Below are positions 3,212 to 21,154 of a stretch of DNA of 32,606 bases, one piece after another; within the stretch, counting starts at the first letter, position 1; the number at the start of each line of letters is the position of its first letter. The notes below the pieces were generated by a model, which saw nothing but the letters and a program-made list of their open reading frames with translations, was not told the origin of the DNA and did no database searches. Both the position numbers and the translations under genes were made by a program. This DNA comes from a virus. The stretch spans positions 1-32,606 of the IMG/VR virus record IMGVR_UViG_3300030329_002079. The stretch is one strand, 5' to 3'.

Positions 3212-3766
3212 TTAAACCCGTTGGAAAACGTGCCCGTTTTCTTCGCAATAGGTATCAGTTAATAAATCTCGACCATAACTCTCAAAGTCAAAATAGGCTT
3301 GTAAGTGTTCGGGCATGTCGTCGAGCAATCCAGAATTGTCGTCGATAAACTCTGCGAGTTGCTTAGGAACATCCCAGCTATCGAAACTGCCCATGTAGAG
3401 ACAAATCAATTCTTCAGGGGTGTGGTTGTATTCGTTTAAATTTTGATCCCAGTAGAGAACGCCTAGCGAAAGCGCAGCGTCTAAAGCATCTTTACCAATA
3501 ACGTCTACGTGTTCTTGGTACTGAATAAACGCATCAACTCCAAAATTAAGTAAATCATGGGGTACGTTTTCAGTGTCCGCGATTTCCCATTCTTCGCGTA
3601 ATTCGCCGTCTTTAGAGTTATCGGTTAATTCCGCCAGCCACTCGGCTAGTTCTTCACTGTGTTCTTCGGACGTTTTACCGTCCAAATCAAACCACTTAAA
3701 AACTAAATTCCCCTTGCTGTAATCAGTCAAAGAGTTGTAACAGACTCTCGCGTTTTGTTTGTTCAT
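3212..3766 (-). CDS. ardA: ArdA-type antirestriction protein
   Basis: ArdA proteins are acidic DNA mimics that occupy the DNA-binding groove of type I restriction-modification enzymes and stop them cutting incoming DNA. This 184-residue protein is strongly acidic throughout. It has the family's opening (R-V-C-Y-N-S-L-x-Y-x-x-G-x-L-x-x-K-W-F-D), the central EEWEIADTENVP segment, and the characteristic end (HLQAYFDFESYGRDLL...NGHVF). Usual length is about 165-180. The start has AACAAGGTGAGAAT ahead of ATG. It sits second in the leftward block, the place expected for a gene needed immediately after DNA entry. Together with the C5 methyltransferase it forms an antirestriction pair. Confidence 0.87.
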   Translation of the reverse strand: MNKQNARVCYNSLTDYSKGNLVFKWFDLDGKTSEEHSEELAEWLAELTDNSKDGELREEWEIADTENVPHDLLNFGVDAFIQYQEHVDVIGKDALDAALSLGVLYWDQNLNEYNHTPEELICLYMGSFDSWDVPKQLAEFIDDNSGLLDDMPEHLQAYFDFESYGRDLLTDTYCEENGHVFQRV

Positions 3767-3857
3767 ATTCTCACCTTGTTATGAGGCCAAAATGTGACCC
3801 CTTCACGCCAAAAGCCCACATTAGAGCGGGCTTGGCTGGGTTAATTGTTGGTATGGC

Positions 3858-4040
3858 TTAATTGCCTAGCCATTCATCAAAAGTCTTTAGCGGCTTATTT
3901 GTTGTGACGTCAATTCCGTTACCATCGTCAGCACATGCTAAATATATTTGATATTCCTGATTATTGGTTCCTCTGCCTTGCGTTTGCCAGTCGGCTGATA
4001 TTGTCGCTATTACTTTGCCTTCGTGCGTTAGTGTTGTCAT
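3858..4040 (-). CDS. Small hypothetical protein, first gene of leftward block
   Basis: A 60-residue protein starting MTTLTHEGKVIATISADW and ending KPLKTFDEWLGN. The central part (GRGTNNQEYQIYLACADDGNGIDVTTN) suggests a small beta-sheet fold. No motif or membrane segment is seen. I chose the ATG at 4040, not the in-frame one at 4076, because TATAGGTGAGACT precedes it at normal spacing. It is the first gene downstream of the divergent control region, so it should be expressed earliest. Small proteins of this 'ISADWQTQGRGTNN' style recur in phage early regions, but no function is known to me. Confidence 0.65.
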   Translation of the reverse strand: MTTLTHEGKVIATISADWQTQGRGTNNQEYQIYLACADDGNGIDVTTNKPLKTFDEWLGN

Positions 4041-4079
4041 AGTCTCACCTATATATAGCGTTATTGCTGGGAACAAATA

Positions 4080-4108
4080 TATATGTATATAACGACTGAC
4101 AGAACCAA
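4080..4108 (-). promoter_or_regulatory. Candidate leftward early promoter
   Basis: On the minus strand TTGGTT (4108-4103) is followed after 17 bases by CATATA (4085-4080), in an AT-rich stretch that ends about 40 bases before the start codon at 4040. The spacing is that of a sigma70-type promoter and both hexamers match only partly. Position supports it more than sequence does. Confidence 0.28.
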
Positions 4109-4143
4109 GTATTACAACGCTTATGATGCCCTATAGATTAGCG

Positions 4144-4334
4144 TGATAGTTGGTATGAATATTGATGTATATAAATATCCCCGAAAATATGGTAAAATAT
4201 TTAATACTTATAAAGACTACACATTAAAATAAGCCAGAATGATAATGGTAGCGGATGTGCTTGTAGGCACAATCTAAACCTGTTGTAGGTTCCCTGTTCC
4301 GTTCACACACTTATATCTTCAGTACCCACTATCA
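4144..4334. repeat. Three dispersed operator-like sites (TGATARTxGGTA)
   Basis: TGATAGTTGGTA at 4144-4155, TGATAATGGTA at 4240-4250 and TACCCACTATCA at 4323-4334, which reads TGATAGTGGGTA on the other strand. The first and third match at 11 of 12 bases as an inverted pair. They lie upstream of the candidate leftward promoter. A repressor or activator binding set is a reasonable reading, with no protein identified. Confidence 0.4.
4256..4291. other. Two tandem small hairpins
   Basis: TGTGC-TTGTAG-GCACA (4256-4271) is followed by AACCT-GTTGT-AGGTT (4277-4291). Both loops share TTGT and the sequence TTGTAGG occurs in both. The pattern is suggestive of an RNA element or cruciform-type site, but the rest does not fold as a tRNA and no known RNA family is recognised. 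Confidence 0.35.
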
Positions 4335-4481
4335 TTTAGAATGATCCAGGCATGGCCCAATCATCACTGAAGTCAATGGGGCGGGGAGGGGGATCACGCA
4401 ATGATATTATTAGTAGTACCAACCCACATACAAAATAAAGCAATTTAGAAAAAAGATATCCTTATATTGTTTTTCAAGTTC

Positions 4482-4511
4482 TTGATTTAAAACATCATTA
4501 ATACTTATCTT
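4482..4511 (+). promoter_or_regulatory. Candidate rightward promoter
   Basis: TTGATT (4482-4487) and TATCTT (4506-4511) are separated by 18 bases and lie about 35 bases before the ATG at 4547, in AT-rich DNA. The match is moderate. It would drive the late block starting with the TerS-like gene. Confidence 0.25.
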
Positions 4512-4546
4512 GCCAAAGAATGTAAATACGGGTATTTTCCTAGACG

Positions 4547-4975
4547 ATGGATGATTACTCGCAATTAACGGATAAAGACAGGGAGAACCTTGAGGAGCGC
4601 AGAGAGTTCAATCTGCGTAAGAGGAAGCGTGGTCGGCCTAAGAAATCGGAGATAAAGGCCAAGAAGCGGGGTAATCGTGGTCCGGTAGGTCGTCCCAAGG
4701 GTGATGCAGCGATTATTAACGAGTACAAGGCTCGTATGCTGGCTTCCCCTAAGTCTGAGTTAGTCCTGAAGACTATTTTCAATGCTGCGCTGAATGACGA
4801 ACACAAGCATCAGGCTGCTGCATGGAAGATGGTGATGGATCGTATGCTTCCCGTGGCTGCTTTTGAGAAGGAAATCGTCAAAGACGGCGGTAGAAATGCC
4901 ATACAGATTAATATATCGGGAGTAGCGGCAGTAGATGTTCCTGACCAACCCCCTATAGAGGGAGAATTTGAATGA
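4547..4975 (+). CDS. Terminase small subunit candidate with two AT-hooks
   Basis: A 142-residue, highly basic protein. Two AT-hook-like motifs are visible, RGRPKK (28-33) and GRPKG (48-52), which bind the minor groove of AT-rich DNA. They sit in a Lys/Arg-rich region of about 30 residues. A helical C-terminal part follows (SPKSELVLKTIFNAALNDEHKHQAAAWKMVMDRMLP), which is typical of phage proteins found just ahead of TerL. From position and DNA-binding character it is likely the small terminase, which selects phage DNA for packaging. It is first in the late block. The ribosome-binding site is poor, so the start is not certain. It could instead be another DNA-binding protein. Confidence 0.6.
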   Translation: MDDYSQLTDKDRENLEERREFNLRKRKRGRPKKSEIKAKKRGNRGPVGRPKGDAAIINEYKARMLASPKSELVLKTIFNAALNDEHKHQAAAWKMVMDRMLPVAAFEKEIVKDGGRNAIQINISGVAAVDVPDQPPIEGEFE

Positions 4976-5088
4976 TCAAGTGGCTGAAAAAGCTCTTATC
5001 CAAAAAACCGAAGAAGAGAGCCAGGGATGAGAAAGGCCGTTTTGTAAAGGATGACCCCAAAACCAGAAAAAACGAAGCCTATGAATGA
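4972..5088 (+). CDS. 38-residue very basic peptide
   Basis: Reads MIKWLKKLLSKKPKKR... and ends RKNEAYE. An amphipathic N-terminal helix (W, L, L against K) is followed by a Lys/Arg-rich stretch and a DEKGRFV-DDP-T segment. It overlaps the stop of the TerS-like gene by four bases (ATGA) and its own stop overlaps the start of the next gene the same way, so translation is coupled on both sides. GAGGGAGA precedes the ATG. These features argue that it is a true gene. Function unknown; a nucleic-acid-binding or membrane-active peptide would fit the charge. Confidence 0.68.
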   Translation: MIKWLKKLLSKKPKKRARDEKGRFVKDDPKTRKNEAYE

Positions 5089-5939
5089 GTTTTTCGGGCA
5101 ACATTAGTGACAAAGTTCCGCTGTATACGTTTCTTGGGAATTTTGGCGATGCCCTTTCTCCGTATTTAGTAAAAAAAATAGCAAACAAGGAAGTTCATTA
5201 TTTAAATTTAGGATTTAACAACAAAGACCGAAATGATTTTGGATATATGGCCGTCGGAAGCATTGCTTCACTGGCTGGCTCTTCTACCAAAGTTTGGGGT
5301 TCTGGGATACTAGATATTAACCTCTGCCCTAGCAAAGACGCTGAGTTTTTTGCAGTTAGAGGGCCAATTACAAGAATGTGGCTTGAATTTCAAGGGTTTA
5401 ATGTTCCTGAGATATACGGAGATCCTGCACTATTGCTGCCTCGTTTTTACAATAAAGAAGTAAAAATTAAGCACAAAATAGGGATTATCCCTCATTACAT
5501 CCACAGCAAGTTATGCAAGGAAAAGTTTGAAGAATCTTTTATAATAGACCTTTCAGGCCATTGCGGAAATGAGTTAGACGGGAAAATAGAGACAACAATA
5601 GATAAAATCAGATCATGCAAGCTGATTGTGTCAACGTCCCTACACGGCATTATTGTTGCTCATGCCTATGGTATTCCAGCGATATGGGCTACGTTTTCTG
5701 CATCAAAACAAAAGTTATTGGGTGGTAAATGGCAGTATATGAAGTTTCAAGATTATTATTTATCTGTTGGCTTAATGCCTCCCAAGTCGCCTTTAGATTT
5801 ATCAAATAAAAAAATAACAAGTAAGTTTTTATCTGGCCTATATTTAAAGTCGCCTAAATTAAATATTAACTTAAAGGATCTGTTTGATTCTTGCCCAATA
5901 CCTAAAAAATGTTCCGGAATAATAGAAGATTTGTTATGA
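5085..5939 (+). CDS. Polysaccharide pyruvyltransferase family protein
   Basis: Family members (ExoV, GumL, CsaB, WcaK) transfer pyruvate from phosphoenolpyruvate to a sugar as a ketal, adding negative charge to surface glycans. This 284-residue protein has the family marks in order: NFGDALSPYL (19-28), VWGSGIL (70-76), AVRGPITR (90-97), YGDPALLLP (111-119) and STSLHGIIVAHAYGIPAIW (183-201). It appears full length for the short phage/bacterial type. No signal peptide or membrane segment, so it should be cytoplasmic. It starts with an ATGA overlap and ends with another. By counting seven 60-base rows I get about 33% GC, against about 46% for four rows of TerL, which suggests transfer. The donor and sugar acceptor cannot be read from sequence. 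Confidence 0.85.
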   Translation: MSFSGNISDKVPLYTFLGNFGDALSPYLVKKIANKEVHYLNLGFNNKDRNDFGYMAVGSIASLAGSSTKVWGSGILDINLCPSKDAEFFAVRGPITRMWLEFQGFNVPEIYGDPALLLPRFYNKEVKIKHKIGIIPHYIHSKLCKEKFEESFIIDLSGHCGNELDGKIETTIDKIRSCKLIVSTSLHGIIVAHAYGIPAIWATFSASKQKLLGGKWQYMKFQDYYLSVGLMPPKSPLDLSNKKITSKFLSGLYLKSPKLNINLKDLFDSCPIPKKCSGIIEDLL

Positions 5940-6316
5940 GTGATCTTCAGCAGTTATTCCTCTTTCCTGCTGACGTTATTTCGGTTTATGACGGTGATAC
6001 CATCACAACGGAGATAAGACTGCCGTTTAATATCTCTAAACGCTCTAAAGTCCGTCTTGCGAAGATAGATACCCCTGAAATACGCACCCGCAGCAAGGCA
6101 GAGAAGGTCTTAGGCTACAAAGCACGGGACAGGATGAGAGAACTTTGTGGCGACAGGGTTTGGCTGGAGTCGTTAGAGAAGGGAAAAGAAGACAAGTACG
6201 GACGGGTTCTGGCTAACCTTTACACCCTTGATGGCGAGGACATTGCCCAGACCCTTATCCGCGAGGAATTAGGCGTTCCCTACGATGGTGGCAAGAAGAA
6301 GCATGTCTGGGGCTGA
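5936..6316 (+). CDS. Staphylococcal nuclease-like (SNase/TNase) endonuclease
   Basis: Calcium-dependent phosphodiesterase fold that cuts DNA or RNA. The 126-residue protein carries VYDGDT (D19, D21, T22), KVRLAKIDTPEIR with R40, D45, T46 and E48, and KYGRVLA with R90. These match the calcium ligands, the general-base Glu and the two catalytic Arg of staphylococcal nuclease. There is no signal peptide, so it acts inside the cell. I chose the ATG at 5936, which overlaps the previous stop as ATGA, over the in-frame ATG at 5909. It sits directly before TerL and overlaps it, so a job in genome processing, host DNA breakdown or packaging is plausible. Confidence 0.88.
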   Translation: MSDLQQLFLFPADVISVYDGDTITTEIRLPFNISKRSKVRLAKIDTPEIRTRSKAEKVLGYKARDRMRELCGDRVWLESLEKGKEDKYGRVLANLYTLDGEDIAQTLIREELGVPYDGGKKKHVWG

Positions 6317-7565
6317 GTTAAATATTGAACTCCTCCCGTGGCAGCAGGAAGTCTGGGGGGATACGACCCGTTTCAAGATCGTTGCTGCTGGCAGACGAAC
6401 CGGAAAGTCCCGATTAGCCGCATGGATGCTCATTGTTAACGCCCTACAGGCTGATAAAGGCCATGTCTTCTACGTTGCACCTACCCAGGGACAGGCCAGG
6501 GACATTATGTGGCAAACCCTTTTAGAGTTAGGCCATCCCGTTGTTTCTGGCTCACATATCAATAATTTACAGATCAAATTAATCAATGGAGCCACGATTA
6601 GCTTAAAGGGTGCTGACCGACCTGAAACCATGCGGGGTGTATCCCTGAAGTTCCTGGTTCTTGACGAATACGCTGATATGAAGCCTGAAGTCTTTGAACA
6701 GATCCTCAGACCCGCCCTGACTGACCAGAAAGGTTCAGCGATGTTTGTCGGGACTCCCATAGGTCGCAACCACTTCTACGAGCTTTATAAATATGCCGAA
6801 TTGGGCGATGACCCGACTTATAAGGCGTGGCACTACACATCCTATGACAATCCCCTGTTAGACCCTGAAGAAATAGACACAGCAAAGAAGTCGATGTCCT
6901 CTTACGCCTTCCGGCAGGAATTCATGGCATCTTTCGAGGCGCGTGGCTCTGAGATGTTCAAGGAAGACTGGATTAAGTACGGTTCTGAGCCTGAAATGGG
7001 TGATTATTACATTGCTATTGACCTTGCAGGTTTTGAGGAAGTCGGGAAAAGGCGTTCCAAGAATTCAAAACTTGACAATACAGCGATTTCTGTCGTGATG
7101 GTAACTGATGCGGGTGAATGGTATATTAGGGAGATTATCCACGGTAGATGGGATCTTAACGAAACAGCGCAAAAGATTTTCAACGCAGTAGACAAGTATC
7201 AGCCTGTATCTGTAGGCATTGAGCGCGGCATAGCGAAACAAGCGGTAATGTCCCCCTTAATGGATTTACAAAAGAGATATAACAAGTTCTTCAGGGTAGT
7301 TGAGCTAACACACGGCAACCGAAAGAAGACGGACCGCATTATGTGGGCGTTACAGGGCAGATTTGAAAACGGGGTTATCTCGTTGGAAAAGGGCGATTGG
7401 AATATCAAGTTCCTTGATGAACTCTTCCAGTTCCCTGATCCACTAACCCATGATGATTTGGTAGATTCGTTAAGTTATATTGACCAGCTTGCCCAAGTCC
7501 CTTACGGGGTGAATGAAATGGAATTTGATGAGCCTGAAATACTGGATGTTATTGCAGGGTATTAA
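6303..7565 (+). CDS. terL: Terminase large subunit (packaging ATPase/nuclease)
   Basis: Motor that pumps DNA into the procapsid and cuts it. Using the ATG at 6303 (420 residues), the Walker A-type motif is AAGRRTGKS (28-36), Walker B with catalytic Glu is FLVLDEY (117-123), and the coupling motif is FVGTPIGRNHF (148-158). The C-terminal RNase H-like nuclease has D240 (IAIDLAG), E307 (VGIERG) and D384/D385 (HDDLVDSL). All key residues are present and length is normal. An alternative start is the ATG at 6285, which adds six residues. Either start overlaps the SNase-like gene. TerL is followed without gap by the Cys-rich gene at 7566. Confidence 0.95.
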   Translation: MSGAELNIELLPWQQEVWGDTTRFKIVAAGRRTGKSRLAAWMLIVNALQADKGHVFYVAPTQGQARDIMWQTLLELGHPVVSGSHINNLQIKLINGATISLKGADRPETMRGVSLKFLVLDEYADMKPEVFEQILRPALTDQKGSAMFVGTPIGRNHFYELYKYAELGDDPTYKAWHYTSYDNPLLDPEEIDTAKKSMSSYAFRQEFMASFEARGSEMFKEDWIKYGSEPEMGDYYIAIDLAGFEEVGKRRSKNSKLDNTAISVVMVTDAGEWYIREIIHGRWDLNETAQKIFNAVDKYQPVSVGIERGIAKQAVMSPLMDLQKRYNKFFRVVELTHGNRKKTDRIMWALQGRFENGVISLEKGDWNIKFLDELFQFPDPLTHDDLVDSLSYIDQLAQVPYGVNEMEFDEPEILDVIAGY

Positions 7566-7757
7566 ATGAAATCATTAGTATGCAATAGCAGTGTATGTTC
7601 AAATGAATCCCCAATGACTGATGACCCTTTAAAAGAATGGTGCAACGCCTGTTATCCTAAGAGAGTAGACAAGGCGGGGCGTAACCAGAGAAGTTTAAAG
7701 CACCAAATTGATCTTGTTAATCGGTGTTGGCGTGTGCCGACATGGAGGCCAGCATGA
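7566..7757 (+). CDS. Small Cys-rich protein between TerL and portal
   Basis: A 63-residue protein whose ATG directly follows the TerL stop codon and whose stop overlaps the portal ATG (ATGA), so it is locked into the operon. It contains C6, C11, C26 and C29 (VCNSSVC ... WCNACYPKR), a four-Cys arrangement typical of small zinc ribbons, then a basic tail (KAGRNQRSLKHQ). A nucleic-acid-binding or packaging-accessory role can be guessed from position only. No ribosome-binding site is obvious; coupling to TerL would supply ribosomes. Confidence 0.65.
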   Translation: MKSLVCNSSVCSNESPMTDDPLKEWCNACYPKRVDKAGRNQRSLKHQIDLVNRCWRVPTWRPA

Positions 7758-9772
7758 GTGAATTATACGAAGTAGACCCATTGATGATAGAGCAATCTAT
7801 AGAAAGCTGGGTTATGACAAAGTGTGATGACTGGCGAGATCATTACGAATCTAATTACTCCTACCGTTTTGACGAATATTACAGGCTTTGGCGTGGCATC
7901 TGGGACTCTGCTGACAGTGAAAGGTCTTCAGAGCGTTCAAGGATCATATCCCCTGCCTTGCAACAGGCCGTAGAGTCTAATGTTGCAGAACTGGAAGAAG
8001 CTACTTTTGGGCGTGGCAAGTGGTTTGATGTTTCAGATAACCTGGGCGACACACAACCCCAGGATGTCCAGTTCCTGAGAAACAAGCTCACTGAAGACTT
8101 TGAAGACTGCAAAATACGCAAGTCTGTAGCGGAGTGCTTAATCAACGCTGCTGTCTTTGGTACAGGTGTTGGCGAGATTGTCATTGAAGAAATGAAGGAG
8201 ATGGCTCCTGCCACCCAGCCTATTATGGGCGGTGATCTTCAGGCGGTTGGTGTCAGCATAGAGGAAAGGGTTAAGGTCAAGTTAAAGCCTGTCATGCCGC
8301 AGAATTTCCTGATTGACCCCGTTTCAACGTCTGTTGAAGACGCTATGGGCGTTGCTATTGATGAATTTGTTGGTCTGCATCAAGTGGAGATGCTTCAGGA
8401 GGAAGGTGTCTACAAAGACACTTATGTTGGCCTTGCCACCCCCGATTCGGATTTAGAGCCAGACCAAGACCTGACTATACGGCATGATAGCAAAGTCCGT
8501 TTAACCAAGTATTACGGTCTAGTGCCAAGGGAAATGCTGGAAGATGCCTTGGATGAAGAAATAGAAGAACTTTCTGGCGAAAAAGAAAAATCAAAATACG
8601 TTGAAGCGATTGTTGTAGTTGCTAACGGCGGTATTCTTTTAAAAGCAGAAGCCAATCCCTACATGATGCAGGATCGCCCTGTTATCGCTTTCCCGTGGGA
8701 TGTTGTCCCAGGAAGATTTTGGGGTCGAGGTGTTTGCGAGAAGGGTTATAACTCTCAAAAAGCTCTTGATACTGAGCTGAGAGCAAGAATAGACGCACTT
8801 AGTCTTACTATTCATCCTATGATGGCTATTGATGCTACCAGACTTCCCAGAGGCTCTAAGCCGGAAGTTCGTCCAGGCAAGATGATCCTTACCAGCGGAG
8901 ATCCCAGAGAAGTCCTACAGCCCTTTAATTTCGGGCAGGTTAACTCGATTACCTTCAATCAAGCAGCCGCTTTACAACAGATGGTGCAGCAGTCTACAGG
9001 TGCGGTAGATTCAGCGGGTATCGCAGGGCAAGTCAACGGTGAAGCCACGGCAGCAGGTATTTCCATGTCCCTTGGGGCGATCATCAAGCGGCATAAGCGC
9101 ACCCTGATTAACTTCCAGCAATCCTTCCTGATCCCCTTTGTCAAGAAGGCTGCTTACCGTTACATGCAGTTTGACCCTGAAAACTACCCTGTTGCTGACT
9201 ACAAGTTCAACGCTAGTAGCACGTTAGGTATTATCGCCAGGGAGTACGAAGTAACCCAGCTTGTCCAGTTGTTGCAAACGATGCAGCAAGACTCGCCGCT
9301 GTATGCAACCCTTGTTGAATCCATTATAGACAACATGAACCTGTCTAACCGTGAAGACCTTGTAGCAGCGATGCAACAGGCCATGCAGCCAAACCCAGAA
9401 GCACAGCAGATGGCGATGGCAGTCCAGCAGTCACAGCTTGAGTTCCAGCAGTCCCAGACAGCAGCATTAACAGCGCAATCTCAAGAGTCTGCCGCTAGAG
9501 CGGTTAAACTGGCTGTTGAAGCTGATACGGCTCCAAAAGAGCTGCAAATTGATCTCATTAACGCTATTACCCGAAACCTGAAAGAAGGTGATGGCGAAGA
9601 TAAAGAGTTTGAGCGCAGATTGAAAACTGCCCAGACTCTCCTTAAAGAAAGAGAAATCAAAGGTAAAGAAAATGCTAACAGACCACGAACTGCAACTCCT
9701 CCTGAGACAGGTAGACAAGCACCTCCAGCCGAAATGGGACCGCTTAGAAGCGTTGGAGAAGATTTACTCTAG
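7754..9772 (+). CDS. Portal protein
   Basis: Dodecameric ring at one capsid vertex through which DNA enters and leaves. The 672-residue protein has the podovirus-type beginning (WVMTKCDDWRDHYESNYSYRFDEYYRLWRG), a segment 'RSRIISPALQQAVESNVAELEEATFG' and the long PGRFWGRGV/EKGYNSQKALDTELRARID region usual in this family. The C-terminal 100 residues are Gln-rich and helical (MAVQQSQLEFQQSQTAALTAQ), like the portal barrel. I chose the ATG at 7754 because GGAGG lies five bases upstream; in-frame upstream codons at 7724 (GTG) and 7742 (ATG) are less well placed. It is larger than T7 portal (about 535 residues). The last 101 bases overlap the next gene. Confidence 0.88.
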   Translation: MSELYEVDPLMIEQSIESWVMTKCDDWRDHYESNYSYRFDEYYRLWRGIWDSADSERSSERSRIISPALQQAVESNVAELEEATFGRGKWFDVSDNLGDTQPQDVQFLRNKLTEDFEDCKIRKSVAECLINAAVFGTGVGEIVIEEMKEMAPATQPIMGGDLQAVGVSIEERVKVKLKPVMPQNFLIDPVSTSVEDAMGVAIDEFVGLHQVEMLQEEGVYKDTYVGLATPDSDLEPDQDLTIRHDSKVRLTKYYGLVPREMLEDALDEEIEELSGEKEKSKYVEAIVVVANGGILLKAEANPYMMQDRPVIAFPWDVVPGRFWGRGVCEKGYNSQKALDTELRARIDALSLTIHPMMAIDATRLPRGSKPEVRPGKMILTSGDPREVLQPFNFGQVNSITFNQAAALQQMVQQSTGAVDSAGIAGQVNGEATAAGISMSLGAIIKRHKRTLINFQQSFLIPFVKKAAYRYMQFDPENYPVADYKFNASSTLGIIAREYEVTQLVQLLQTMQQDSPLYATLVESIIDNMNLSNREDLVAAMQQAMQPNPEAQQMAMAVQQSQLEFQQSQTAALTAQSQESAARAVKLAVEADTAPKELQIDLINAITRNLKEGDGEDKEFERRLKTAQTLLKEREIKGKENANRPRTATPPETGRQAPPAEMGPLRSVGEDLL

Positions 9773-9854
9773 TAAGCAGGAGCCGCCTAAGAAACGAGGC
9801 CGACCAGCAAAAGTTCATTCTGACCAACCCCAAAAAACAGCAAACATTGCATAG
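9672..9854 (+). CDS. AT-hook small protein overlapping portal end
   Basis: A 60-residue protein made of an amphipathic helix (DHELQLLLRQVDKHLQPKWDRLEALEKI) followed by KKRGRPAK (40-47), an AT-hook. Its first 101 bases are shared with the portal gene in another reading frame. AAAGGTAAAGAA precedes the ATG. Small proteins of the 'V.KH..P..DR.EALE' type often sit after the portal gene in marine phages. This is the second AT-hook protein in the module, which suggests a shared role in handling phage DNA near the packaging machine. Function unknown. Confidence 0.62.
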   Translation: MLTDHELQLLLRQVDKHLQPKWDRLEALEKIYSSKQEPPKKRGRPAKVHSDQPQKTANIA

Positions 9855-9862
9855 GAGGAGGT

Positions 9863-9955
9863 ATGGCTACTTACAGCAAGCCCGTCAAAAGGGTTATTCA
9901 CAGGGATAACAAGCCTAAACCCAGAAATGTAAAGAAAGGCGGGCGCAAGAGGTAA
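9863..9955 (+). CDS. 30-residue basic peptide
   Basis: Reads MATYSKPVKRVIHRDNKPKP... and ends KKGGRKR. It has one of the strongest ribosome-binding sites in the window (AGGAGGAGGT just before ATG), which is the main reason to call it. Eleven or more residues are Lys or Arg and there is no acidic residue except one Asp, so it should bind nucleic acid or an acidic protein surface. It lies between the AT-hook protein and the gene at 9989. No family recognised. Confidence 0.6.
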   Translation: MATYSKPVKRVIHRDNKPKPRNVKKGGRKR

Positions 9956-9988
9956 TTTAAAACTGCTATAAAGAAAAAGAGGGAACTT

Positions 9989-10225
9989 ATGACCCCAGAG
10001 CTTGAAACCTATTACAATAACTATAATGAGTTATTTAACCATCAAGGCTTCAAACAACTCTTAAAAGATGTTTCCAACAATATTGACCGTCTTTCTGATG
10101 TCCAGACTGTTAAAGACTTAGAGGAGTTGTTTTTTAGAAAAGGCCAAATAGCGGCCTTTACCTCAATTATTAACCTTGAAGGGACGATTGAGGCAGCTAG
10201 AGATCAGGCAGAAGATGCCGCATAG
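9989..10225 (+). CDS. Small helical phage protein (portal-proximal)
   Basis: A 78-residue acidic, helix-rich protein (YYNNYNELFNHQGFKQLLKDV...DLEELFFRKGQIAAFTSIINLEGTIEAA). The segment 'F...G.K.L..D......L....DLEELFFRKGQ' recurs in small proteins beside the portal gene of many phages. Its function is unknown; a head-neck or packaging accessory is likely from position. GAGGGAAC precedes the ATG. Its stop (TAG) shares its last base with the GTG start of the glycosyltransferase gene. Confidence 0.7.
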   Translation: MTPELETYYNNYNELFNHQGFKQLLKDVSNNIDRLSDVQTVKDLEELFFRKGQIAAFTSIINLEGTIEAARDQAEDAA

Positions 10226-11202
10226 TGAGGATATTTATATCAATAGCTTCATTTGAAGACCCTTTATTAAAATATACGATAGCTTCTTGCTATGAGAACG
10301 CTAAATATAAGGAAAACCTGGTATTTGGCGTATTTGACCAAAGCAATGATCATCTAACCTTCGATAGCAGCATTAATATCAGGTATAAGACCTGCGCCCC
10401 TGCTGAATCTTTAGGTGCTTGCTGGGCAAGGTCAAAGATCCAAACCGAACTGATGGAGGATGAGGAGCTATATTTACAGGTAGATTCCCACACCCTTTTC
10501 GGAAAGGATTGGGATGTTTATATACTGGATCAGTATATTAAGGCTAAAACATGGGTAGATAAGCCAGTTCTTACTACTTACCCAAGGTCTTTTATTGCTG
10601 TAGAGACAAAAGAATCTTTTAACTGCGACCAAGATTTAGTTTTTTTGCCTAAAAAGGATTGGGATTATCCTAGTTATAAACCCTCTACTTACGTTTTAAT
10701 AGTAGATAGACCATTTAATAATGGTTTTCATTGTAGCCAAACTGCCAGGATTATTGACCCAAAGCAATACAAAGGTTTTTTGTTAGCGGCAGGGTTTATT
10801 TTTTCTAGCAGAGATTGGGTAGATTGTGTACCTTATGACCCTGAAATATTTTTCACTGGGGAGGAAAGCACGTTGGCATTGAGGACGTTTACCCACGGGT
10901 ATGATCCGGTTTTCTTCCCTCAAGCCCCTGTTTGGCATCAATATCACGATAAAGATAACAAGGCGCAGAGGAAAAGGCACTGGGAAACAGACACCAAAGA
11001 AAGTTCTAACAAGCTGATGTTGGCTGGCGAAGAAAGGGTAAATAAAGTTTTATCTGAAAAAATTACAGGAAAATACGCAATAGGAGACAAAAGAACATTA
11101 AAGGAGTATGCTTGTTTTAGTGGTATAAACTATAAGCAGAAAAGCTATTGCCCAGAAAAAGCCACATTTAAAGCATATGAAAACTTTGGCTGGGAAGAGT
11201 AG
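10225..11202 (+). CDS. GlcNAc-transferase-like glycosyltransferase (PF11397 type)
   Basis: The nearest family I recognise is PF11397, which includes Skp1 GnT1, an enzyme that moves GlcNAc from UDP-GlcNAc to a protein hydroxyl. Family marks: IFISIASFEDPLL at the N-terminus, CWARSKIQ (66-73), QVDSHTLF (85-92) with the metal/sugar-binding D-S-H, a FIFSS segment (191-195), VPYDPEIFFTGEE (202-214) and THGYDPVFFP (223-232) with a downstream H-x-Y-H. No signal peptide or membrane anchor, so cytosolic. The GTG start overlaps the previous stop by one base. Three counted 60-base rows give about 32% GC, lower than the flanking head genes. The acceptor could be a virion protein or a host glycan; donor sugar is not proven. 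Confidence 0.78.
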   Translation: MRIFISIASFEDPLLKYTIASCYENAKYKENLVFGVFDQSNDHLTFDSSINIRYKTCAPAESLGACWARSKIQTELMEDEELYLQVDSHTLFGKDWDVYILDQYIKAKTWVDKPVLTTYPRSFIAVETKESFNCDQDLVFLPKKDWDYPSYKPSTYVLIVDRPFNNGFHCSQTARIIDPKQYKGFLLAAGFIFSSRDWVDCVPYDPEIFFTGEESTLALRTFTHGYDPVFFPQAPVWHQYHDKDNKAQRKRHWETDTKESSNKLMLAGEERVNKVLSEKITGKYAIGDKRTLKEYACFSGINYKQKSYCPEKATFKAYENFGWEE

Positions 11203-11203
11203 A

Positions 11204-11428
11204 ATGTTAAAAGTTTATGATTTTTGTTGCCCAAATGGGCATGTATTTGAAAAGTTTGTTAGCAGTGACGTTACGTCCAGTAGGTGCGGTTGTGGCGAAA
11301 CTGCTGAGAAAAGGTTATCTGCCCCGTCCTTTATCCTGGATGGGTCTACTGGGGATTTCCCTGGCAGACACCTGAAATGGATAAGAGAGCACGAAGAAGC
11401 AGGTAGAAGAAAAACATCTCCACAATGA
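11204..11428 (+). CDS. FmdB-like zinc ribbon protein
   Basis: A 74-residue protein. The N-terminal half has YDFCCPNGHVFEKF and SRCGCGETAEKR, two Cys pairs of a zinc ribbon like the FmdB family. The second half, APSFILDGSTGDFPGRHLKWIREHEEA, is the 'GDFPG....W...HE' signature seen in many phages between portal and scaffold genes. I chose the ATG at 11204, one base after the glycosyltransferase stop, rather than the upstream in-frame ATG at 11177. The function is unknown, perhaps head assembly or regulation of host translation. Its close linkage to the glycosyltransferase may be only positional. Confidence 0.75.
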   Translation: MLKVYDFCCPNGHVFEKFVSSDVTSSRCGCGETAEKRLSAPSFILDGSTGDFPGRHLKWIREHEEAGRRKTSPQ

Positions 11429-11451
11429 TTTGACAATCACGGAGTTTAATT

Positions 11452-12273
11452 ATGTCAAGAGCGTCAATGGTTGATCTGCCTCCTGAAGGGGAGCAAGCAG
11501 TCAGCGTTGAAAGTGAAGATCAGGAGATTCAACAAATCTCTTCAGATGGTTCTGGATTACCGGAGCCAGGAGAGCATGTTGAGCAACCTCAAGAGCCTCA
11601 AGTTCCTGAGAAATACCAAGGTAAATCTCTGGAAGAAGTTGTACAGATGCACCAAGAAGCCGAAAAGCTGCTAGGTCGTCAGTCTTCTGAGGTAGGAGAA
11701 CTTCGCAAGGTTGTAGATGATTTCATTACGAATCAAACGCCGCAGCCAGCACCACAACAAGAGAAGCCTGAAGATGACTTAGATTATTTTACAGATCCGC
11801 AAGCAGCCGTTAATCGTGCTATTGATAACCATCCTAAGATTAGGGAGGCTGAAGAGTATACTGCTAGGCACAAGAAACAAACGTCCCTGGCACAACTCCA
11901 AAGCAGACATCCTGACATGCAGGACATTCTCGCTGATGAGAAGTTCGCAGAATGGATAAAATCTTCCCCAATTAGGACGCAGTTATATGTAGAGGCTGAT
12001 AAAAATTTTAATGCAGAGGCTGGAAATGAGCTTTTTACGCTCTGGAAAGAGTTGAAAGGTTCAGCACAGCAAGTAGCCAATGTTGAAAAACAGGCTAGGA
12101 AGCAGCAAATTAAATCAGCTAACACAGGTAATGTGCAAGGCAGCGCGGAGAAGTCAAATAGGAAAGTCTATCGCAGGGCAGACATTATTAAGCTAATTCG
12201 TGACGACCCAGAAAGGTATCAATCTTTGTCTGAAGAAATTTTAAGAGCGTACCAGGAGGGTCGAGTCAAATAA
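11452..12273 (+). CDS. Capsid scaffolding protein
   Basis: Internal protein that shapes the procapsid and leaves before DNA packaging. The 273-residue sequence begins with an acidic disordered region (about 1-45), then VPEKYQGKSLEEVVQMHQEAEKLLGRQSSEVGELRK, the signature of podovirus scaffolds. Helical, Gln/Glu-rich middle and a basic C-terminus (KVYRRADIIKLIRDDPERY) follow, as usual for the capsid-binding end. It directly precedes the major capsid gene, the conserved order. GGAG lies eight bases before the ATG. Confidence 0.87.
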   Translation: MSRASMVDLPPEGEQAVSVESEDQEIQQISSDGSGLPEPGEHVEQPQEPQVPEKYQGKSLEEVVQMHQEAEKLLGRQSSEVGELRKVVDDFITNQTPQPAPQQEKPEDDLDYFTDPQAAVNRAIDNHPKIREAEEYTARHKKQTSLAQLQSRHPDMQDILADEKFAEWIKSSPIRTQLYVEADKNFNAEAGNELFTLWKELKGSAQQVANVEKQARKQQIKSANTGNVQGSAEKSNRKVYRRADIIKLIRDDPERYQSLSEEILRAYQEGRVK

Positions 12274-15309: not shown

Positions 15310-17754
15310 ATGTCTTTTAGCGATAGAGTCTTAGGGTTTGGTGCGTTTCCTAATAGGGACACTACCTATGAGATAGACCAGTCCCTGATGTTTAATGGCA
15401 GTAGTTCTTATCTTCATCTAACCCCCAGTGGTGCAGGAGATAGAGATAAGTGGACATTTTCTTGCTGGGTAAAGCGCGGGAACCTATCAATATCTGCGGA
15501 AACAGCTTTATTTGGTGCTTATGATGATGCTAATAATCGGGATGTTTTAAGATTTAAGAGCAGTGATGAGTTAGAACTTCAGGTTTTGTCTGGAGGAACA
15601 AGCTACAACAAAAAAAGCGATGCAAAATACCGTGACCCCTCTGCTTGGTATCATATAGTCGCAGTCTATGACTCTGCAAACGCAACAGCAGATTATAGAA
15701 TAAGGCTGTACGTTAACGGTTCAGAAATAACCAGCTCGACAGGGACTGATCCGGCCTCTGGAACGGATTCAACTATCAACAATTCTGACAAACATTATAT
15801 CGGCGCAAGAAGTTCTGACGGAAATCCTTCTTTGTATTGGGATGGTTATATGGCTGAAGTCCATTTCATTGATGGAAGTGCTTTAACCCCTAGTGCTTTT
15901 GGCGAAACACATGAAGACACGGGGCAGTGGATTCCTAAGAAATATAGCACTGCAAGTGGTGCGTATGACACTAATGGCTTCTACCTCAAGTTCGTGTCGG
16001 GGGCTTTGGGTACTGACAGTTCTGGCGAAGGAAACAACTATACCGCTGTCAGTCTTGATAACGATGATGTTTTCTTAGATTCACCAACCAATAATTTTTC
16101 TGTAGCAAACCCTCTAGCGGGAAGCACAGATATTGATTGGTATCAAGGAAATACAGTTCCATATCAACCAAGCCAAAGTAATTTCGGCGTAACGGTTTCT
16201 ACAATCGCGGTTGAGTCTGGAAAATATTACGCTGAGTTTCGAGTGCGCGGAGACAAAAGCAACGCTCAATATATTGGTGCTGGCACTTATGTTCCTATAG
16301 TGGACAACAGCAATCAAAACGGTAACGGTTCAGGCAATGTTGTTTTATTCCCTCAAAATAGCACTGCTGCAAATAGAGCCATTGTTGTAGATGGTACAGC
16401 GATAACCACTGATTTAACCGCTGGTTCAGAAGGGGATAAGTACGGCGTTGCACTGGATGCCGATAATGCAAAAGTTTATTTTTATCGAAACGGTTCTACA
16501 ATAGGCTCTACGAGTGGCTATTCCATTACTGATGTAGGCACTGGGAAATACCATTTTATTATCGGTGTTAGGGGCACTACGGACTATAGAGGTTATTGGG
16601 AAGCAAACTTTGGTGCAAACTCTTCTTTTGCTGGCAATGAAACAAAACAAAATAATGGGGGAGAAGGCGAAGATTTTTACTACACGCCTCCTACAGATTA
16701 CAAAGCACTGTGTACCGCGAACCTCCCAACCCCAACGATTACAAAAGGTACGGATCATTTTAATACGATTCTGTATACCGGTAATGATACCGACGATAGA
16801 ACTCTAACAGGAGTAGGGTTTCAACCAGACTGGGTATGGATTAAAACAAGAAATGCAACTAACTACCATAATTTATTTGATGCGGTTCGTGGAGTTAGCA
16901 GGGTTTTATATAGCAACAATAATCTCGCTGAAGTAGTCACATCCGACCCTAATAATTCCCTAGTTGCGTTTACAAGCGACGGCTTCACGGTTGATGATTC
17001 GTCGGAATATAATGACTTAAATAGTTCTTCTCATACTTATGTCGCTTGGAACTGGAAAGCCAACGGGTCAGGTTCTGCCGACACAAGTGCTGATATAGAC
17101 GCAACAGTTTCAGCAAATACTGCCGCAGGGTTCTCTATTGTTACGTGGACGGCAAATGGTTCAAATACAGACACTATCCCGCATGGTCTGGGAACTACTC
17201 CAAAGGTTGTTTTATACAAGCAACGGGCAACGGCAGCGAGTAGTTGGTATTGGTGGACAACTGCTGTTGACGGATCTCAAGACTATTTGATTCTAAATAC
17301 TACTGCTGCCAAAGCAGATATAAACACTTCAACGTATGGTTCGCTAACTTCTTCAACCTTTACAAATTTCGGGTATCCAGACACAAATACAATGGTGGCG
17401 TATTGTTTCGCAGAGGTAGATGGGTATTCAAAATTTGGATCGTATGAAGCGAATAATTCTACGGCTGGCCCCTTTATTTTTACGGGTTTCACCCCTGCGT
17501 GGTTAATGATTAAGTATGCCGATGGTGCTGGTGAAAGTTGGTGGATGTATGATAACAAAAGAAATGCTGCTTTTAATCTAAATGATGATGTCTTGTATGC
17601 CAACTTAACTGCCGTTGAATCATCTTCCGGTGGTGTAGATTTTCTTTCAAACGGCTTTAAGCTACGGGCCACTAGCGGCGGTTTAAACAGCGCAAATACC
17701 TATAGTTATATGGTTTTTGGATCCAGTCCATTTAAATATTCCAACGCGAGGTAA
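15310..17754 (+). CDS. LamG/concanavalin-type tail protein
   Basis: An 814-residue protein following the tail fibre. Residues about 27-205 look like a LamG/concanavalin A-like lectin fold (SLMFNGSSSYLHLTP, WTFSCWVKRG, WYHIVAVYD, IRLYVNGSEI, YWDGYMAEVHFIDG). Residues about 290-440 resemble a SPRY-type jelly roll (GKYYAEFRV, YGVALDADNAKVYFYRNGS). The rest (480-810) carries VGFQPDWVWIKTRNATNYHNLFDAVRG and WNWKANG segments, which often occur in phage tail proteins of marine origin. Likely binds glycans on the host surface, as fibre or spike. No catalytic residues were recognised. Confidence 0.8.
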   Translation: MSFSDRVLGFGAFPNRDTTYEIDQSLMFNGSSSYLHLTPSGAGDRDKWTFSCWVKRGNLSISAETALFGAYDDANNRDVLRFKSSDELELQVLSGGTSYNKKSDAKYRDPSAWYHIVAVYDSANATADYRIRLYVNGSEITSSTGTDPASGTDSTINNSDKHYIGARSSDGNPSLYWDGYMAEVHFIDGSALTPSAFGETHEDTGQWIPKKYSTASGAYDTNGFYLKFVSGALGTDSSGEGNNYTAVSLDNDDVFLDSPTNNFSVANPLAGSTDIDWYQGNTVPYQPSQSNFGVTVSTIAVESGKYYAEFRVRGDKSNAQYIGAGTYVPIVDNSNQNGNGSGNVVLFPQNSTAANRAIVVDGTAITTDLTAGSEGDKYGVALDADNAKVYFYRNGSTIGSTSGYSITDVGTGKYHFIIGVRGTTDYRGYWEANFGANSSFAGNETKQNNGGEGEDFYYTPPTDYKALCTANLPTPTITKGTDHFNTILYTGNDTDDRTLTGVGFQPDWVWIKTRNATNYHNLFDAVRGVSRVLYSNNNLAEVVTSDPNNSLVAFTSDGFTVDDSSEYNDLNSSSHTYVAWNWKANGSGSADTSADIDATVSANTAAGFSIVTWTANGSNTDTIPHGLGTTPKVVLYKQRATAASSWYWWTTAVDGSQDYLILNTTAAKADINTSTYGSLTSSTFTNFGYPDTNTMVAYCFAEVDGYSKFGSYEANNSTAGPFIFTGFTPAWLMIKYADGAGESWWMYDNKRNAAFNLNDDVLYANLTAVESSSGGVDFLSNGFKLRATSGGLNSANTYSYMVFGSSPFKYSNAR

Positions 17755-20328: not shown

Positions 20329-20672
20329 TGGCAAAAGGCAAGAGGCTGGAAGACAATAGCGAATACGCTATGTACGATGTAGATGGAGATGGTACTGTCT
20401 CTGATGAAGAACTTGCTATGTCTGAGCGTATGCAGAACCTATCTGTGATGCACGAGAAGGCCGATGCCCAGCGGAATATGTGCTGGTTGGCCCTATTAGG
20501 TATGCTTTTATACCCTTCTCTTGTGGTGTTTTGTGACATGCTTGGATTGAATAAGGCTGCAGAGCTACTTGAAGCGATGAGTTCAATTTATTTCGTGTCT
20601 GTCGGCGGTCTTGTCTCCGTATGGTTCGGATCGGTGGCTTACACCAACACCAAGAATGGAGGCTCTAAATGA
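20328..20672 (+). CDS. EF-hand protein with two membrane segments, holin candidate
   Basis: A 114-residue protein with a canonical calcium-binding EF-hand loop, DVDGDGTVSDEE at residues 17-28, in the N-terminal cytoplasmic-type part. Two hydrophobic segments follow (about 51-72, CWLALLGMLLYPSLVVFC, and about 85-105, IYFVSVGGLVSVWFG). The end is basic and polar (AYTNTKNGGSK). This order, just before the lysozyme, is that of a holin. Related EF-hand holin-like proteins occur in marine phages. It overlaps the lysozyme start (ATGA). Confidence 0.7.
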   Translation: MAKGKRLEDNSEYAMYDVDGDGTVSDEELAMSERMQNLSVMHEKADAQRNMCWLALLGMLLYPSLVVFCDMLGLNKAAELLEAMSSIYFVSVGGLVSVWFGSVAYTNTKNGGSK

Positions 20673-21154
20673 CCGTAAACGTAAAACAAGTTTACGAGGA
20701 AATAGCTTCAGACGAAGGCAAAATTTTGCATAAGTATTTATGCTCTGAATCCCACCCGACTGTGGGTATTGGCCATAAAGTGCTTGATACAGACCCAGAG
20801 GCTAACCTCCCTATACATGATGCCTACGGGGAAGTTTCTGAGGATGAATGTATTTCAGAAGAGCGTTGTTTTGAGCTTTTTGAGCAGGATGTTGAGATTG
20901 CTATTAACGGATGTAAATCCATATACAGTAATTGGGATGAATTGCCACAAGAAATGCAGCATATTCTGGTGAATATGTGTTTTCAGCTTGGACAAGGCGG
21001 TTTAAGCAAGTTTAAGAACATGAACGATGGTGTTGAAAAAGAAATGTGGGGCATGGTTTCGTTGGACATGATGGACTCCAGATGGGCGCAGCAGACTCCA
21101 GAACGGGCAAGAAGGCTCAGAGATAGAGTTTTAGAGGTGTCTTCAGGAGAATAA
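20669..21154 (+). CDS. T4-type lysozyme (GH24) endolysin
   Basis: Cleaves peptidoglycan between MurNAc and GlcNAc. The 161-residue protein has the catalytic region DEGKILHKYLCSESHPTVGIGH. E16 and T31 match Glu11 and Thr26 of T4 lysozyme. The residue at the Asp20 position, nine after E16, is C25. In the T4 family the triad is written E-8aa-D/C-5aa-T, so this fits the Cys variant. The C-terminal TPERARRLRDRVLEV is also family-like. There is no signal, so it needs the holin to pass the membrane. GGAGG lies eight bases before ATG. Confidence 0.88.
   Translation: MTVNVKQVYEEIASDEGKILHKYLCSESHPTVGIGHKVLDTDPEANLPIHDAYGEVSEDECISEERCFELFEQDVEIAINGCKSIYSNWDELPQEMQHILVNMCFQLGQGGLSKFKNMNDGVEKEMWGMVSLDMMDSRWAQQTPERARRLRDRVLEVSSGE

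Follow-up and report, generated by a model that had tools for sequence, protein, structure and literature searches.

Enzymes of the PF04230 family, phage-encoded pyruvyltransferases included, are already known, and one of the phage enzymes has been shown to be active (PMC10629545). Among them is WbbZ, the O-antigen pyruvyltransferase of Klebsiella O1, the solved structure of which is 6x1l; its Caudovirales version is active as a pyruvyltransferase and makes the O1b glycan (PMC10629545). The gene considered here, PvT, belongs to virus record IMGVR_UViG_3300030329_002079, the whole of which (32,606 nt, hereafter the window) was analysed. Its product shares the motifs of WbbZ, which also provides its best solved fold, at about 15% identity; the published phage WbbZ has the polymerase gene wbbY as its partner, whereas PvT, devoid of such a partner, sits in a packaging operon. 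The pyruvyltransferase-like core protein of the Lak megaphages is likewise phage-encoded and carries a PS_pyruv_trans domain, with Lak phage sequences 32-37% identical to PvT, but it is described as a two-domain protein, fused to a glycosyltransferase domain and encoded in a genome of about 540 kb (PMC8346664). Members of the same subfamily, about 30-43% identical to PvT, are found in loci L104-L166, in LR756500 and in Cobetia phage Carin-5, where they stand with sugar-nucleotide and glycosyltransferase genes, many of them by a UvsX-like gene, and not in a terminase operon.

Phage receptor-modifying (seroconversion) enzymes, which typically act in lysogens, resemble the predicted role of PvT in that a phage gene alters a surface polysaccharide. 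They differ from it in that PvT lies among packaging genes, and in that no integrase match was found in 12 records of its phage group, possibly fragments, an absence which argues weakly against lysogenic conversion. What is new, within the literature and collections searched, is that a pyruvyltransferase gene stands alone inside a packaging operon and that close relatives have the exact empty site.

The pyruvyltransferase and its predicted fold

A preliminary description, made from the letters of the DNA, had called this open reading frame a full-length polysaccharide pyruvyltransferase, and had proposed to check the call by a profile search against PF04230, by structure prediction and by comparing the same gap in related phages. 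The frame is intact, from its ATG start to its TGA stop (284 aa, no internal stop), and the PF04230 profile matches it with E=3.6e-17, at 63.6 bits for a curated cut-off of 25.3, so that both the call and the profile check held. The low GC content also described was right as a contrast, the gene having 36.3% GC (33.0% at third codon positions) vs 46.6% for the terminase large subunit gene (TerL) and 43.5% for the window, while the figure of about 33% then given was slightly low. The narrower CsaB equivalog TIGR03609 does not include the protein (13.8 bits vs a cut-off of 213.1), no PHROGs family matches it, and PADLOC returned nothing.

Characterised pyruvyltransferases have in common the motifs NxGD and RxxxS/T and a histidine (PMC10629545), which are found in PvT as N19-F-G21-D22, R92-GPI-T96 and H187. 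In all 63 homologues compared, viral and cellular, the residues N19, G21, D22, G58, S59, G74, R92, G93, G112, D113, H137, H187, G188, K220 and D223 are invariant, and PvT carries every one of them. By motif, its conserved histidine corresponds to H270 of CsaB, a residue whose replacement by alanine gave phage resistance (PMC3545897). A difference is seen two residues before this histidine, where yeast Pvg1p has R337, an arginine contacting the phosphate of phosphoenolpyruvate (PEP) (PMC6801904): PvT has Ser185 at this position, and serine is nearly invariant there across the 63-sequence subfamily. The PEP-site arginine of the Pvg1p type is not family-defining for PF04230.

The AlphaFold2 model, computed from the 63-row alignment, is confident (pLDDT 89.4, pTM 0.90) and displays a pair of Rossmann-like domains, arranged in the GT-B-like manner of WbbZ and Pvg1p. 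Its best solved match is WbbZ, structure 6x1l (Foldseek E=3.8e-4, TM about 0.45; VIA Z 12.2, rmsd 4.8, 203 aligned), with Pvg1p close behind (5ax7; Z 11.6, rmsd 5.2, 227 aligned). Since chains of the UDP-GlcNAc 2-epimerase type score equally (Z 11.9), the functional call needs the profile and the motifs besides the fold. The link to WbbZ and Pvg1p comes from fold comparison only, PDB sequence searches with the protein or with the 63-row profile giving no match, and the nearest folds in BFVD belong to giant-virus proteins, two of them bearing the name polysaccharide pyruvyl transferase. Profile, motifs and fold together identify PvT as an intact ketal-pyruvyltransferase, with its catalysis predicted.

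A scan with a five-sequence alignment retrieved homologues in 293 viral contigs and 68 cellular loci. None of the 79 other viral loci kept has packaging or structural genes of the present phage beside the pyruvyltransferase gene, the sole packaging-type match being a weak nuclease (SNase) match in L152, and about two dozen lie near a UvsX-like gene, a label read from the sequence and not a profile result. When the flanking genes of 37 loci, 128 in number, are sorted by Pfam family, the commonest are sugar isomerases, cytidylyltransferases, epimerases, glycosyltransferases, methyltransferases and aminotransferases; to judge from these neighbours, phage pyruvyltransferases mostly adjoin sugar-biosynthesis genes, as would befit surface-glycan pathways. 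The short pyruvyltransferases of loci L104, L118 and L133-L166 form a clade that is largely viral, and many of them adjoin UvsX-like and sugar-nucleotide genes. The tree does not resolve the position of the window's protein among sequences that are mostly viral (best identity 44%, end branch 0.88), so that a donor cannot be named.

The packaging operon and its empty site

The phage is an uncultured, small, tailed one, with portal and adaptor proteins of the SU10 type. Its host is likely a marine bacterium, as suggested by the LamG/DUF7483 protein (15310-17754), which matches proteins of Roseobacter, Methylophilales, cyanobacterial and Pelagibacter phages at about 34-40%, and by a portal weakly resembling those of Roseobacter and Puniceispirillum phages. 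At the left end of the window, on the minus strand, are a short C5 DNA methylase-like frame (1378-2013), matching positions 1-111 only of a 324-position profile, and an ArdA-type antirestriction gene (3212-3766).

Table 1. Genes and insert boundaries of the packaging region and of the second cassette
Feature	Coordinates	Strand	Remarks
Small-terminase-position gene (TerS by position only)	4547..4975	+	Upstream of TerL in most relatives
38-aa basic peptide gene	4972..5088	+	Stop overlaps PvT start; 79% conserved in L001 and L002
Left insert boundary, TATGAaTGA-type junction	5081..5095	+	L001/L002: single TATGA, 38-aa peptide to SNase
PvT, ketal-pyruvyltransferase (PF04230) cassette	5085..5939	+	Pfam, motifs, fold model
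Right insert boundary, second TATGAgTGA-type junction, PvT stop/SNase start	5935..5949	+	
SNase-like nuclease (PF00565)	5936..6316	+	E=5.9e-12; 72-81% identical in L001/L002
TerL, terminase large subunit (Terminase_6N)	6303..7565	+	E=9.5e-21; 79-93% identical, best 80 relatives
PF11397 (GlcNAc) glycosyltransferase	10225..11202	+	E=1.2e-35; between 9989-10225 and 11177-11428

The layout of the operon (Table 1), read from the sequence and from Pfam matches, agrees with what had been described: PvT stands between a TerS-like gene followed by a 38-aa peptide and the SNase-TerL pair, joined to both neighbours by ATGA overlaps (at 5085 and 5936). A further ATGA joins the TerS-like gene to the peptide gene (4972), and the nuclease and TerL genes overlap by 14 nt; with gene ends overlapping in this way, the stretch 4547-7565 makes a single compact set, the genes of which are probably coupled in translation. 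As for the TerS-like gene, its position was as described and its identity was not confirmed by profile, there being no Pfam match and weak PHROG matches only. A promoter and terminator scan of 3767-11500 gave no excess over shuffled sequence, and neither Rfam matches nor tRNAs were found. In the non-coding region upstream of the TerS-position gene, a block conserved with L002 (4320-4450) comprises a G-rich run followed by a conserved stretch, and might serve in control or in packaging.

A scan of viral contigs with TerL yielded relatives of which the best 80, with 79-93% identity, were taken. Those reaching far enough share the gene order TerS, TerL, portal, two small genes, scaffold and capsid. 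PF04230 is found in 2 of the 85 group records, many of which are fragments: the window and a contig (L081) that is 99.7% identical to it over 8.2 kb, with the same arrangement and a PvT gene identical base for base. Such a match points to the same virus population, recovered in another contig, and the recurrence of the junctions makes a chimaeric assembly of the locus unlikely. All 22 differences between the two contigs fall within the non-coding interval 4168-4544, the remainder of the 8.2 kb being identical.

The two nearest of the relatives listed, L001 and L002, pass from the 38-aa peptide to the nuclease gene at one TATGA, hence display an exact empty site, while in the window the same TATGA junction flanks PvT on both sides. 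This repeat may be the trace of a recombination event, being however too short to serve as evidence beyond ATGA coupling. The comparison of the gap thus shows that PvT is not a normal gene of the terminase region, and its status as a core gene there has to be rejected: it is a cassette inserted in the packaging operon.

The place where it landed is itself changeable, a point absent from the preliminary description, as is the second carbohydrate gene treated below. Over the 69 loci that span it, the interval between TerS and TerL varies from 354 to 2,224 bases, as against 17-80 for the gap between scaffold and capsid, and this spread, set against a near-constant gap, marks the interval as a variable slot. 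Its cargo is an M15 endolysin-type gene in 74 of the best 80 relatives (a representative matches a PHROG endolysin family with E=6.7e-34) and elsewhere includes a 2OG-Fe(II) oxygenase, a glutaredoxin-like gene and a methyltransferase-like gene. Lateral acquisition of PvT into this slot, downstream of the TerS-position gene and upstream of the SNase-TerL pair, is the best explanation of its presence. In the window, as in L001 and L002, the nuclease gene occupies the slot instead of the M15 gene of the interval in L003-L080, and the oxygenase (PF13640; L001:1634-2233) is that of the sister virus, lying between nuclease and TerL in the same slot.

A second cassette, the PF11397 glycosyltransferase, is inserted in the structural operon 4.3 kb downstream of PvT. 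In the other relatives covering the interval, the two small genes that flank it are at most 54 bases apart. It is present in 5 of 53 records tested, occurring at this very position in L236, L237 and L238 (82-83% identical), and is missing in L001 and most other relatives. The contig L002, with its slot free of PvT, overlaps L236, which has the glycosyltransferase gene, at 99.9% over 2,271 bases; by this overlap the two appear to be one virus population having PF11397 but not PvT. Likewise, L238 has the glycosyltransferase gene and L001, about 90% identical to it, does not. It follows from the L002/L236 overlap that the two cassettes are not obligate partners and assort independently, which weakens the idea that they form a pair within one pathway.

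What the cassette may do

We put at roughly one in two the probability that PvT serves the PEP-dependent pyruvylation of a surface glycan of the host late in infection, thereby masking receptors. The enzyme, probably translated along with the late packaging genes through ATGA coupling, would move pyruvate from cellular PEP onto a terminal sugar, in ketal linkage. The acceptor would be a host-made glycan or a lipid-linked precursor thereof, because the window, in which PvT stands alone, has no recognised gene of the sugar-nucleotide, flippase or polymerase kind. The negative charge added would alter the host surface glycan late in infection, and competing phages, or progeny meeting their own host or its debris, would no longer bind. 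When pyruvylation by the CsaB of the host is lost, adsorption of AP50c and infection by Thrax1-2 are abolished (PMC3545897, PMC9703825), which means that pyruvate can decide phage adsorption; together with the activity of the phage WbbZ, this makes receptor masking plausible. Several features speak against it: using cytoplasmic PEP late in infection would leave little time for export of the modified glycan, PvT has no recognised partner of a glycan pathway, and Ser185 replaces the PEP-phosphate arginine of Pvg1p.

The main structural rival would have PvT pyruvylate a virion-protein sugar, one that the PF11397 enzyme may have attached, to give charged virions. Characterised PF11397 enzymes, of the Skp1 Gnt1 type, add GlcNAc to a polypeptide, and the two genes both belong to the late structural operon, relatives showing an empty site for either of them. 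Yet the independent assortment of the cassettes (L002/L236; L238/L001) weakens this decoration of virions, the literature examined yielded no pyruvylated glycan of virions, and we hold this reading to be unlikely. The envelope could also be the target in another way, a pyruvylated cell-wall or envelope polymer easing lysis or release, and the sole point in favour of this is that the M15 endolysin-type gene, usual occupant of the slot, acts on the envelope. A glycan-capping transferase is however no hydrolase, the window has a PF00959 lysozyme of its own (20669-21154), and other phage pyruvyltransferases lie in sugar-synthesis clusters, not in lysis modules, all of which leaves a role in lysis very improbable.

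It is rather doubtful, finally, that PvT is a passenger, an intact gene recently captured, of no benefit to the phage and heading for loss. That the gene is known from one virus population only, in two identical copies, that its GC content is low and that it is missing from relatives among the best 80 with a TerL up to 93% identical would all suit such a fate; against it, PvT is full length and in frame, retains the whole set of family-invariant residues, and is coupled to essential genes without disturbing them.

In a broader and tentative reading, to which we give a minor probability, a lytic phage would carry a stand-alone pyruvyltransferase as exchangeable late-operon cargo, capping glycans of the virion or of the host with charge, as one of several single-gene modifiers of glycans or proteins, such as the PF11397 glycosyltransferase and the 2OG-Fe(II) oxygenase, that are exchanged at fixed slots of the morphogenesis operon. 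A lone pyruvyltransferase coupled to terminase genes suggests that the charge of glycans is changed around virion assembly and release, and the exact empty site in close relatives offers a clean natural comparison of presence and absence. PvT thus adds to the exchangeable single-gene modifiers found in the morphogenesis operon of a widespread and abundant group of uncultured phages.
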